From: an uncultured Pseudomonadota bacterium
Lineage (GTDB): Bacteria > Desulfobacterota_B > Binatia > UBA9968
Assembly (NCBI GenBank): GCA_946478635.1
Contig: CAMLCX010000347.1
Span: 1-5,687 of the forward strand
Direction of reading: 5' to 3'
Length of the DNA: 5,687 nucleotides
Part shown: positions 1 through 5,687 of the stretch, piece after piece
How the letters are laid out: every line of letters begins with the position of its first letter
How positions within the stretch are numbered: position 1 is the stretch's first letter
Notes under the pieces: generated by a model
What the model was told of the DNA's origin: nothing
The model's database searches: none
Seen by the model: only the letters and a program-made list of their open reading frames with translations
Translations under genes and position numbers: made by a program

Positions 1-484
1 CGTCTTTGTCGGGATTGATATTGGATTTCTTGAGAAACGCTTTAACCGCGAATTCCGAATAGGTGCCGGCGCCGGTCACGCCAATCGTTTTCCCTTTGAG
101 GTCTTCCACGCTGCGGGTCTGCTTGTTGCCGAGCAGAATATAGTTGGTGGTGCTCGAGGTGCAGCCGATAATTGACAAGTCCAAACCGCGCGACCGGCTG
201 CGAAAGACCGCTTGTGCGCCGCCGATGGCGGCATAGTCCACTTCTCCCGAAACCAGTGCGGCGATCGCGGCCGGCCCACCGCGAATGAGTATCGGCTCCA
301 CCTGAAGACCCTGCTGCTTGAAAAATCCCCGTGCCAGCGCGACCCGAAATGGAATCTCGCTATTCCAGGCAAGACTGACGAACACCATGCGGATCTTCGA
401 CTTTTCCTGCGCGAACGAAGACGCAGCGCCGCACATTAATAAGAAAACCAATGCTATGATTCCGGTACGTTTTAAATTTTTCAT
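1..484 (-). CDS. NMT1/SsuA-like ABC transporter substrate-binding protein, 3'-truncated by window edge
   Basis: This is the N-terminal 161 residues of an exported solute-binding protein. The ATG at 484-482 opens a classic Sec signal peptide: a basic start (MKNLKR), a hydrophobic core (residues 8-19) and an SFA|Q cleavage site after residue 25. The mature part reads as the first lobe of a type II periplasmic binding fold of the NMT1/THI5/SsuA group. A beta strand with 'FVSLAWNSEIP' is followed by 'ARGFFKQQGLQVE' (residues 51-63), 'GGPAAIAALVSGEVDYAAIG' (69-88), and the 'VEDLKGKTIGVTGAGTYSEF' stretch (126-145) that is typical of the family. The family binds a small organic ligand in the periplasm and delivers it to an ABC permease, but the ligand cannot be predicted. 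A GGAG lies 10 nt before the ATG. The gene lies 41 nt downstream of the DUF411 gene on the same strand, so the two may be cotranscribed. The C-terminal half is outside the window. Family confidence is high; substrate is unknown. Confidence 0.9.
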   Translation of the reverse strand, partial: MKNLKRTGIIALVFLLMCGAASSFAQEKSKIRMVFVSLAWNSEIPFRVALARGFFKQQGLQVEPILIRGGPAAIAALVSGEVDYAAIGGAQAVFRSRSRGLDLSIIGCTSSTTNYILLGNKQTRSVEDLKGKTIGVTGAGTYSEFAVKAFLKKSNINPDKD

Positions 485-493
485 TATCCCAAC

Positions 494-517
494 ACTCCAG
501 TACTCCATCACTCCATT
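494..517 (-). repeat. Three tandem octamers between the two minus-strand genes
   Basis: On the plus strand three 8-bp units run head to tail: ACTCCAGT, ACTCCATC and ACTCCATT. Read in the direction of the flanking genes, each unit carries GGAGT, so the leader of the substrate-binding protein gene contains three evenly spaced Shine-Dalgarno-like GGAG cores. The last lies 10 nt before the ATG and is the likely ribosome binding site. Whether the repetition has a function is unknown. Confidence 0.7.
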
Positions 518-525
518 CTTCTCTT

Positions 526-993
526 CTATCGCTTGGCGTACACCGTCGTCCTGCCGCTCTTGTCGAAGGTCAAGACTTCGTACGGTTCGGGCTTGCCGCC
601 TTCCATACCCGGGGAACCCACGGGCATTCCCGGCACGGCCAAGCCAAGGACCGGCGGTTTTTCCTTGAGAAGTTTATAAATCAAATCGGCCGGCACATGC
701 CCTTCGATCAGATATCCGCCAACCAGAGCAGTATGGCAGGCATAGAGCCGCTCGGGCACGCCCTGCTTGCGCTTGAAATCGGTGAAATTCTTGCCGAACA
801 AAACCTTCTTTTCGACCTTGAACCCACTCTTTTCTAGGTGCACCACCCAGCCATCGCAGCAGTCTCAGGTCGGCGTTTTGTAGACGGTCACCGTTGGCGA
901 CGCCGATTTACTCTGCGCGTAAACGACTCCGACGGCTAGGACCTGGACAAGGTAGACGGTAGAAACAAGAAAACGCGAATTTCTGAATGTCAT
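526..993 (-). CDS. Candidate selenocysteine-containing exported DUF411 (CopG-like metal-binding) protein
   Basis: The frame from the ATG at 993-991 to the TAG at 528-526 encodes 155 residues if the single in-frame TGA (codon 43) is read as selenocysteine. Residues 1-26 form a signal peptide with a VYA|Q cleavage site, so the product should be exported. The rest is a full-length DUF411 domain (Pfam PF04214). It has 'VYKTPT-U-DCC-DGW' (37-49), where relatives have PTCGCCxxW, then 'GVPERLYACHTALVGGY' (78-94, with Cys86-His87), 'IEGHVPADLIYKLL' (96-109) and 'GLAVPGMPVGSPGME' (117-131). DUF411 proteins are often annotated as metal-binding and found near copper-resistance genes; their biochemistry is poorly known, and the CxCC motif near the N-terminus recalls thioredoxin-like redox sites. 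Sec at the first Cys suggests that residue is catalytic. The start is fixed by a perfect AGGAGG 6 nt upstream. The alternative is a nonsense mutation or sequencing error (TGC/TGT to TGA), but frame, signal peptide, motifs and a SECIS-like hairpin are all intact. Starting at the GTG at 846 would give a 106-residue protein lacking the active site. Confidence 0.82.
834..850 (-). promoter_or_regulatory. Putative bacterial SECIS hairpin
   Basis: In the DUF411 mRNA the segment begins 14 nt after the UGA. CUGGGU pairs with ACCUAG over six base pairs (one G-U wobble), leaving a five-base loop GGUGC. G and C at the loop ends could pair, giving a seven-pair stem with a GUG triloop. The loop starts 21 nt past the UGA, and G occupies its first two positions followed by U. 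This agrees with known bacterial SECIS features: an apical loop about 16-37 nt from the UGA, a G among the first two loop bases, and a GGU in the loop as in the E. coli fdhF element. SelB would bind this loop to deliver Sec-tRNA. The segment also codes for residues W49 to E54. I judged the fold by eye, without an energy calculation. Confidence 0.7.
865..867 (-). other. In-frame TGA read as selenocysteine (codon 43 of the DUF411 gene)
   Basis: The only in-frame TGA in the five genes of the window lies exactly where DUF411 relatives have the first Cys of CxCCxxW. It is preceded by YKTPT and followed by DCCDGW. Reassignment of UGA to Trp is ruled out locally because Trp is regularly TGG, for instance throughout the Trp-rich protein after 3844. 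None of the complete genes seen here ends in TGA (they end in TAA or TAG), so stop use of TGA in this genome cannot be confirmed from this window. Confidence 0.8.
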
Positions 994-999
994 TGCCGC

Positions 1000-1005
1000 C
1001 CTCCT
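1000..1005 (-). promoter_or_regulatory. Ribosome binding site that fixes the DUF411 start
   Basis: A perfect AGGAGG lies 6 nt before the ATG at 993. It is the strongest Shine-Dalgarno site in the window. It shows that translation is meant to begin upstream of the in-frame TGA rather than at the GTG at 846. Confidence 0.85.
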
Positions 1006-3836: not shown

Positions 3837-3843
3837 CATGAAC

Positions 3844-5687
3844 ATGAAAAAACGGATGGCATTGAACCTCTTGATCCTTTTCGCGATGGCGATCGGACTC
3901 GCCTCATGCAAAGAGAATCCCGCTCCTCCGCAAACAAAAGCGGTAGTGAAGACAGAGGTTAAGAAAGAGGATGCCGAGCCGGAGCCGCCGGTCGTGGGAC
4001 GGATAACGTTCATGGAAAAAAACGTTTTCCGTTATCTGAGCGACGCCAAGGATTGGGCTTTGGCCATGGTCGACGTTCCGGTGAGCGACGGCGACGTTCT
4101 TTACTCCGACACCCAGGGGCGCTCCGAGCTTACCTTTCCGAACGACACCACGGTCCGTCTCAATGACAAGACCAAAATGCAGGTGGACAGCGTCAAGGGG
4201 AATCTGACATCGCTTTTCGTCAATTCCGGCATTGCCAGGATTCAAAATCGTAGCGCGGATACGACGGTCAAAGTCGATACGCCCTACGGACAGGTCCTGT
4301 CCAAGCAGCCCGGCGCATTCGACGTCTATGTCGGCGACTCCTCCGTCGCGGTGACGGCATTCAAACAACCGCTCCAGTTTGTCGACGGCAAGGGAACTAC
4401 CTACGACATCAAGCCCGATGGCGAATCTTTGTTGGCGAACGAAAAAGCCGTCGTGCCCACGGCGCGCTTTATGAGCTCGAGTTGGGACAGCTGGAACAAT
4501 CAGCGCGACAACGAACTGCAAGTTTACGAGGTCAATCCGTCGCCCTATCTGCCCGCGCAGTTGCGCTCGGACAGCAAAGTCCTGAACGACAACGGCGCTT
4601 GGGAGCAGCTATCTTATAACGGCGAAACCGCCCATTACTGGACGCCAAGAAACGTCGCTCCCGACTGGTCTCCGTTCACCGTCGGCCAATGGACATCGTG
4701 GAATGGCGAGCAGCTATGGGTGCCCTACGAGCGCTTTGGCTGGGTGACCCATCATCACGGCGGATGGATTTATCACAATGGGCGCTGGTATTGGCGACCT
4801 CCCGTTCCTGGAAGATATCGCTACGCGGCCTGGTATCCCGCGCGGGTCGCCTGGGTTCATAGCGGGCGGCACATCGGCTGGGTTCCCATCTCGCCCTATG
4901 AAGCCTATTACGGTCGCCGCTACTGGGGCCCGCGCTCGGTGGTTTATTACCCCAATGGCAGGCACGTCGAATTTCGCAGCTACGTCAATGCCAATCGAGT
5001 CATCATCATCGAAAAGGACCGTTTATACGGCGTTCATCGCCGATATGAAACCACGAGAGATGTGAGGGTCGTCAAAGAAGTGGTTAACAATGGACGAGCC
5101 GCGCCAGTCGTGACACGCGATGTGGTGGGAGGGAATGCAAAAATGGAGCAGCATTTCGCACGCTCGGGAGATTTTTCACACAAGCCCAACGCGGATGCAA
5201 CCAGTGAATTCGCCGCGCGACGCCGCGGCTCGGGCGGCGCAACGGTAAATGCCCAATCCGGCGCCCCGGAAGTTCAGAAGACGAGCCTCAAAACCTCGGG
5301 CGATAAAACCGCGCCGTCGCCGGCCATCGCCAAGCCGGGTAGCGACAGCAAGCGCAACCTCCCTGAAACGCCGAAAGACGTGCGACGCGAACAACGCCAG
5401 GAGCGGCGTCAGGAGGCAAATATCGGCAATGCAGCCAAAGAAGCACAGGGTCAGCAACGCGTTCAGCAACAACAAAAGCAGACGCCACAGCAATCGTTAG
5501 CTGAACGTCAGCAACAGCGGGGGCAGCAGCAAGAAGCGCAGAGGCGGCAACAACAATTAGAGAGACAGCAGCAACAGCAATTAATGCAGGAGCAGCAGAA
5601 AGCGCAGCAAGCCCAACGACAGCAACAACAACAGGCCCAACCCCAACAGCAACAGGTCGCGCAGCAGCAGCAACAGGCTCAGCGGCA
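3844..5687 (+). CDS. Lipoprotein with FecR-like domain, DUF6600-like Trp/Tyr-rich region and Gln-rich tail, C-terminally incomplete
   Basis: At least 614 residues are encoded and the frame runs off the window. Residues 1-22 are a lipoprotein signal (MKKR, hydrophobic core, lipobox LASC with Cys22), so the protein should be anchored in a membrane on the periplasmic side. Residues 25-50 are a charged and Pro-rich linker. Residues 52-170 read as a FecR-like beta domain: 'VPVSDGDVLYSDTQGRSELTF' spans 78-98, followed by 'TTVRLNDKTKMQV' and 'VKVDTPYGQV'. Residues 253-365 are very rich in Trp and Tyr, with repeated W-x-PY/GW units ('WVPYERFGWV', 'GGWIYHNGRWYWRPP', 'GWVPISPYEAYYG'), as in DUF6600 proteins that follow FecR domains. 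From about 515 on the chain is Gln/Arg/Glu-rich with little hydrophobic content. Its role is unknown; envelope binding or scaffolding is a guess. It follows the amidohydrolase by 64 nt but looks functionally unrelated. Domain-type assignment is moderately firm; function is not. Confidence 0.8.
   Translation, partial: MKKRMALNLLILFAMAIGLASCKENPAPPQTKAVVKTEVKKEDAEPEPPVVGRITFMEKNVFRYLSDAKDWALAMVDVPVSDGDVLYSDTQGRSELTFPNDTTVRLNDKTKMQVDSVKGNLTSLFVNSGIARIQNRSADTTVKVDTPYGQVLSKQPGAFDVYVGDSSVAVTAFKQPLQFVDGKGTTYDIKPDGESLLANEKAVVPTARFMSSSWDSWNNQRDNELQVYEVNPSPYLPAQLRSDSKVLNDNGAWEQLSYNGETAHYWTPRNVAPDWSPFTVGQWTSWNGEQLWVPYERFGWVTHHHGGWIYHNGRWYWRPPVPGRYRYAAWYPARVAWVHSGRHIGWVPISPYEAYYGRRYWGPRSVVYYPNGRHVEFRSYVNANRVIIIEKDRLYGVHRRYETTRDVRVVKEVVNNGRAAPVVTRDVVGGNAKMEQHFARSGDFSHKPNADATSEFAARRRGSGGATVNAQSGAPEVQKTSLKTSGDKTAPSPAIAKPGSDSKRNLPETPKDVRREQRQERRQEANIGNAAKEAQGQQRVQQQQKQTPQQSLAERQQQRGQQQEAQRRQQQLERQQQQQLMQEQQKAQQAQRQQQQQAQPQQQQVAQQQQQAQR
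5386..5687 (+). repeat. Gln-rich low-complexity segment (CAG/CAA codons)
   Basis: This stretch encodes residues 515-614 of the lipoprotein and is dominated by Gln, with scattered Arg, Glu, Ala and Leu. Gln codons alternate irregularly between CAG and CAA and are interrupted by other residues. That indicates selection for a Gln-rich peptide more than a simple trinucleotide expansion. The tract continues past the window. Confidence 0.8.

Follow-up and report, generated by a model that had tools for sequence, protein, structure and literature searches.

Does the single TGA that interrupts a DUF411 gene in an uncultured bacterium end its reading frame, or is it decoded as selenocysteine (Sec)? 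The gene lies on the minus strand of the window, by which we mean the whole analysed stretch of 5,687 nucleotides. A first-pass annotation of the sequence had proposed a selenoprotein in which Sec takes the place of the first Cys of the family's CxCC motif.

The interrupted DUF411 gene and its relation to CopG

Translation confirmed that the frame running from the ATG at 993 to 526 on the minus strand is open except for one internal stop, the TGA at codon 43 (865..867). The gene comprises 155 codons, corresponding to 155 aa, and its true stop is a TAG. The TGA is embedded in the context YKTPT-*-DCC-DGW. An AGGAGG ribosome-binding site for the ATG, likewise expected from the first-pass annotation, was found at 1000..1005 (minus strand). 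Residues 1–26 (916..993) form a probable export signal peptide, judged from a helix at residues 6–25 in the low-confidence part of the structure model and a cleavage site placed by eye.

The protein matches the Pfam family DUF411 (PF04214) with an E value of 3.5e-25; since this model spans residues 84–130 only, the motif is not covered by the match. The sole relative by sequence in the PDB is CopG of P. aeruginosa (6WIS/6WJE), which aligns over residues 35–153 with an E value of 9.3e-28. In this alignment codon 43 falls on the first Cys of the CopG CxCC motif, and the claim that the TGA sits on a conserved Cys of the family is thereby borne out. The second and third Cys are kept as Cys45-Cys46 (856..861), so the predicted Sec codon occupies position 1 of a (C/U)xCC motif and changes it to UxCC. 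Searching the NCBIfam models gave no match to the protein at E 1e-3, and Rfam returned one weak match in the window (E 0.42) that we regard as chance.

The structure model, with a pLDDT of 86 overall and of 51–57 over residues 1–30, yielded five PDB matches at E ≤0.001. All of them are CopG, with TM scores of 0.87–0.90 by target and 42% identity; the Foldseek E value to 6WJE is 1.7e-14. We also examined the family motifs downstream of the TGA, which had been described as intact. Cys86 in the CHT motif (736..738) as well as Met123 and Met130 in the segment GMPVGSPGM (604..627), which aligns with its CopG equivalent, are invariant in an alignment of 19 rows (A2), and Cys45-Cys46 are present in every row that covers them.

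Conservation of the TGA codon among related genomes

An initial genome scan yielded five loci, one of which, L001 in the metagenome-assembled genome Syntrophobacter sp. SbD2 (G001), has a TGA at the same codon. Two other genes of the window point to the order of this genome as its likely home. Genes 84–86% identical to the window's amidohydrolase occur in seven genomes of the order. In G001, G417 and G419 the amidohydrolase gene and the TGA gene share a contig, together with a Gfo/Idh gene about 91% identical to that of the window. A relative from the protein database (P0036) is labelled Candidatus Binatia. At its far end (3838-5685) the window encodes a FecR/DUF6600 protein whose tail, very rich in Gln, continues beyond the window.

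We then determined the codon in the order as a whole. Of its 35 genomes 14 possess the gene, and codon 43 is TGA in every one of them, which is beyond chance. The codon was read individually in 13 genomes, with L039, in which an apparent frameshift follows further on, as the fourteenth. Instead of TGC or TGT throughout close relatives, the finding that the first-pass annotation had set against its own proposal, the order has TGA, and no Cys form of DUF411 was found among its 35 genomes. At the level of the class, DUF411 occurs in 16 of 148 genomes, and both genomes outside the order have Cys codons. Cys occupies the site in each of the 13 DUF411 loci examined from outside the order; 12 of them were found with a pattern that requires Cys, the other being L064. 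In a phylum sample of 395 genomes G001 was the sole match, and 28 stretches of viral contigs contained no relative. As a control we used alphaproteobacterial genomes: DUF411 is present in 73 of 385, and the match runs over the site free of stops in 72 of these 73. The exception (G861) shows a match that begins at residue 54 and contains one TGA and one TAG.

The simplest alternative is that the gene is decaying or that the TGA is a sequencing error. Two copies in the order are indeed damaged, L037 (G411), the N-terminus of which carries extra stops, and L039 (G430) with its frameshift. The presence of this TGA in 14 genomes from separate species argues against this explanation, as do the substitution patterns on both sides of the codon. 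Downstream of the TGA, all 13 gene pairs compared show more silent than replacing change per site. Over the 10 codons upstream of it, 12 of the 13 pairs do so; in the remaining pair (L028/L031), which has 1 silent change and 3 replacing ones, the rates are equal. Together with the starts of the database proteins described below, these observations make decay or error extremely improbable. In a midpoint-rooted tree the 15 UGA forms fall into one clade (support 99/97), apart from 12 other Cys forms. The same clade also contains 8 truncated proteins, the proteins P0002, P0068 and P0102, and the Cys protein P0080.

A standard ORF call on the gene yields just a fragment of 106 aa that starts at GTG 846 (529..846, minus strand), as had been foreseen for automated annotation, and the database relatives turned out to be mostly short as well. 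Among the best 120 of 7993 database proteins, 116 start at residues 47–54, past the TGA, and only 4 are full length. Of the 116 short proteins 105 have a length of 105–106 aa, and in 107 of 115 the start lies at residue 50. Starts placed just after the TGA in so many of the best 120 indicate truncated annotations. Databases thus hold the family largely as proteins that lack the metal motif. A separate JGI peptide of 42 aa, 83% identical to the N-terminus of the window protein, stops exactly ahead of the TGA. A protein search with residues 30–90 listed no full-length form (72 of 73 candidates, ≤67% coverage); its word filter also missed the full-length protein P0002.

The preference of ORF callers for residue 50 would also be expected if the functional product were the short 106-aa protein, translated from a GTG or ATG after the UGA, with the upstream part acting as a leader. 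We consider this highly unlikely. In 6 of 15 DNA copies the codon at this start is GTC, which is no start codon, and the fragment would have neither the signal peptide nor the xCC motif. The excess of silent over replacing change in the 10 codons that precede the TGA speaks against a short product, too.

The residue at the site in the four full-length proteins varies: Ser in P0002, Trp in P0068 and P0102, and Cys in P0080. The Trp forms may be gene calls made with code 4. P0080 and the TGA gene L029 differ at just two of 156 residues, one of them being the Sec position, and are likely a natural Sec/Cys pair. The occurrence of Ser and Cys at this position shows that Sec is not indispensable.

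Selenocysteine machinery and a hairpin downstream of the UGA

If the codon is not a stop, it could still be read as another residue, namely as Trp by near-cognate readthrough or through a changed genetic code. The two Trp-containing JGI proteins, possibly code-4 calls, and the Ser of P0002 would fit such a reading. We therefore looked at how TGA is used in this lineage. TGA terminates 33 of 94 mechanical ORFs of at least 200 codons in the neighbourhoods of the gene, which argues against a changed code. TGA is also the terminal stop of 8 of 15 TGA-form frames, in L039 as a result of the frameshift. Since tRNA-Sec, SelB and a TGA-containing SelD are present as well, decoding as another residue has very little to recommend it. 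Decay, sequencing error, a short-start product and a code change were rejected on the evidence from conservation, selection, start codons and ORF ends.

The first-pass annotation had also called for a search for Sec genes, and selB, tRNA-Sec and selD were detected in most genomes of the order. Of the 14 genomes with the TGA gene, 12 have a selB over the cut-off, 13 a tRNA-Sec (scores of 73–79 bits versus a cut-off of 47) and 13 a selD. For the bacterium of the window itself, Sec genes are predicted from their presence in the order. In G430 the selB match is only partial. G421 (L028, L046) has an open TGA gene and neither selB, tRNA-Sec nor selD over the cut-off; its assembly may be incomplete. 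The 21 genomes of the order without the gene comprise 17 with selB, 12 with tRNA-Sec and 18 with selD, so that the presence of Sec genes is consistent with Sec decoding but does not discriminate. Of 14 control genomes, 2 have a selB and 5 a tRNA-Sec over the cut-off. A built-in positive control is provided by selD: 32 of 33 selD matches of the order contain one TGA, showing that UGA is in use within a known selenoprotein family of this lineage. These selD genes (L067-L080), TGA-containing selenoprotein genes themselves, often share a contig with selB.

A SECIS element had been expected just downstream of the UGA. In the window a SECIS-like hairpin can be formed from nt 15 to 31 past the UGA (834..850, minus strand), with a stem of 7 bp and a GUG loop beginning at nt 22. 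A hairpin is formable in all 15 UGA-form genes, starting 11–15 nt past the UGA with the loop from nt 18–22. The positional limits of the search follow what is generally known of SECIS elements, and a G within the first two loop positions is a rule built into the search. A small loop with a G has been described for bacterial SECIS elements (PMC1088965).

We assessed the hairpin by shuffling synonymous codons. The z-scores of all 15 genes are negative, with a combined z of -4.62, although only 3 of 15 genes fall singly below 0.05. The hairpin thus exceeds what synonymous shuffles give, in line with the expected SECIS. In the same test, SelD of the same lineage reached a combined z of -3.11 (14 genes, 5 of them with a positive z), and the Cys-DUF411 control a combined z of +0.95 (12 genes, L064 being left out). 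An earlier and looser energy test over four stretches had given mixed results, with combined z values of -3.99, -1.92, -0.46 and -1.43.

Codon choice within the hairpin shows the same tendency. Leu is encoded by CTR (CTG/CTA) in 15 of 15 cases inside the hairpin versus 46 of 112 elsewhere, and His by CAC in 14 of 15 versus 14 of 34. The six stem pairs are complete in 14 of 15 UGA forms as compared to 5 of 12 Cys forms (Fisher p 0.0056; p 0.024 after thinning). The tests count genes as independent; the Leu and His results hold without three near relatives. The outermost stem pair is C-G in the window and G-C in 13 others, and is unpaired in L006. The codons for W-V-x-H-L dictate part of the stem, which may have predisposed the family to acquire a SECIS. 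The Cys forms L041 and L042, which belong to the same class, keep the stem with its six pairs in the same position, as if the site had been pre-set for a SECIS or a SECIS had been lost.

The reading as a UxCC-type DUF411 selenoprotein is hence supported by the TGA in all 14 genes of the order, by Sec genes in most of the genomes and by the hairpin. SelB and tRNA-Sec would read the UGA, helped by the hairpin starting 15 nt downstream. Considered as a step of its own, the predicted decoding of UGA 43 as selenocysteine appears very probable from these sequence comparisons.

A predicted copper site and its genomic surroundings

CopG binds a tetranuclear copper cluster through its CxCC motif and two Met residues (PMC7558416). 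CopG-like proteins are periplasmic, and oxidation of Cu(I) or the handing-on of copper has been proposed as their task in PMC7558416 and PMC8456105. The window protein resembles CopG in its fold, in the positions of its motifs, in the CHT Cys, in the GMPVGSPGM segment and in its predicted export; it differs from CopG in having a UGA codon in place of the first Cys of CxCC. Since the other CopG residues are kept, a Sec-containing copper protein is suggested, in which the copper is the part that we infer.

After the signal peptide has directed the protein to the periplasm, Sec43, Cys45, Cys46, Cys86 and Met123/Met130 would constitute the copper site, on the model of CopG with its four coppers; the CHT Cys would be a predicted ligand. 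The selenolate would be expected to bind Cu(I) more tightly than a thiolate and to shift the redox potential, and the protein might serve in balancing Cu(I) and Cu(II) or in buffering copper. Taken as a whole, the explanation that this is an intact DUF411/CopG gene whose UGA is read as Sec, yielding an exported thioredoxin-fold protein with selenium binding copper, seems to us somewhat more probable than its contrary. The further proposal of a natural copper-selenolate cluster throughout the lineage, in which Sec replaces the first Cys of the tetranuclear CopG site and tunes the redox behaviour of periplasmic copper, is made by analogy and tentatively, at a little less than an even chance.

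Alternatively, the protein could be a selenoprotein that uses Sec for thiol/selenol redox reactions, such as disulfide or peroxide chemistry, the family having changed its task in this lineage. Its thioredoxin-type CopG fold and UxC-type motif would suit this function, and so would its surroundings. An NMT1/SsuA-like ABC substrate-binding protein gene lies directly downstream in the window (2..511, minus strand) and runs out of it, and such a gene adjoins the UGA form in 7 of 14 genomes, a further difference from CopG. No copper gene was recognised beside UGA forms when the ORFs of the window and 6 proteins of related loci were scanned. Among plasmid-borne Cys relatives, by contrast, all 6 that were fetched (from 20 listed of 3454 records) adjoin copper-annotated genes. 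A function in thiol/selenol chemistry is nevertheless less probable than one with copper in view of the invariant Cys86, Met123 and Met130 and of Cys45-Cys46 being kept wherever they are covered, and the nearest solved fold is CopG itself. If the copper site is real, this small family, for which the structure of a Cys form is available, would make it possible to study the effect of selenium on a biological copper cluster by setting Sec and Cys versions of one site side by side.

Sec in a metal-handling Cys motif has precedents in different families, all found in Table 1 of PMC13188914: the SO_0444 Cu/Zn efflux transporter (UxC), CopZ-like 2Fe-2S proteins (GxUC, CU) and a cation ATPase (UxxC). 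The same table contains Trx (UxxC) and Sec.2 (PF13192, UxC). As predicted for the window protein, these have a thioredoxin-like fold and a motif that begins with Sec; they belong to different Pfam families. In agreement with the earlier impression that DUF411 is outside the established selenoprotein families, this table of 119 prokaryotic selenoprotein families and subfamilies from 2026 lists no DUF411 or CopG entry and no UxCC motif. No report of a DUF411 selenoprotein was found in the portions of the open-access literature covered, nor was any selenoprotein report for Binatia found in open-access literature; one paper, PMC9999580, contains both Binatota and selenocysteine. On the sequence evidence, the gene is a predicted new selenoprotein family and a predicted Sec variant of CopG.

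Two observations concern the surroundings of the gene. Similar, apparently meaningless translated sequence (WSIG-like) follows the gene in the window (480-520) as well as in L006 and L030 and hints at a shared intergenic repeat; within the window, no repeats were found near 440-560. On a Variovorax plasmid (L065), a gene at 5621-5833 near a Cys-DUF411 gene is annotated as a GDCCVxC (seleno)protein.
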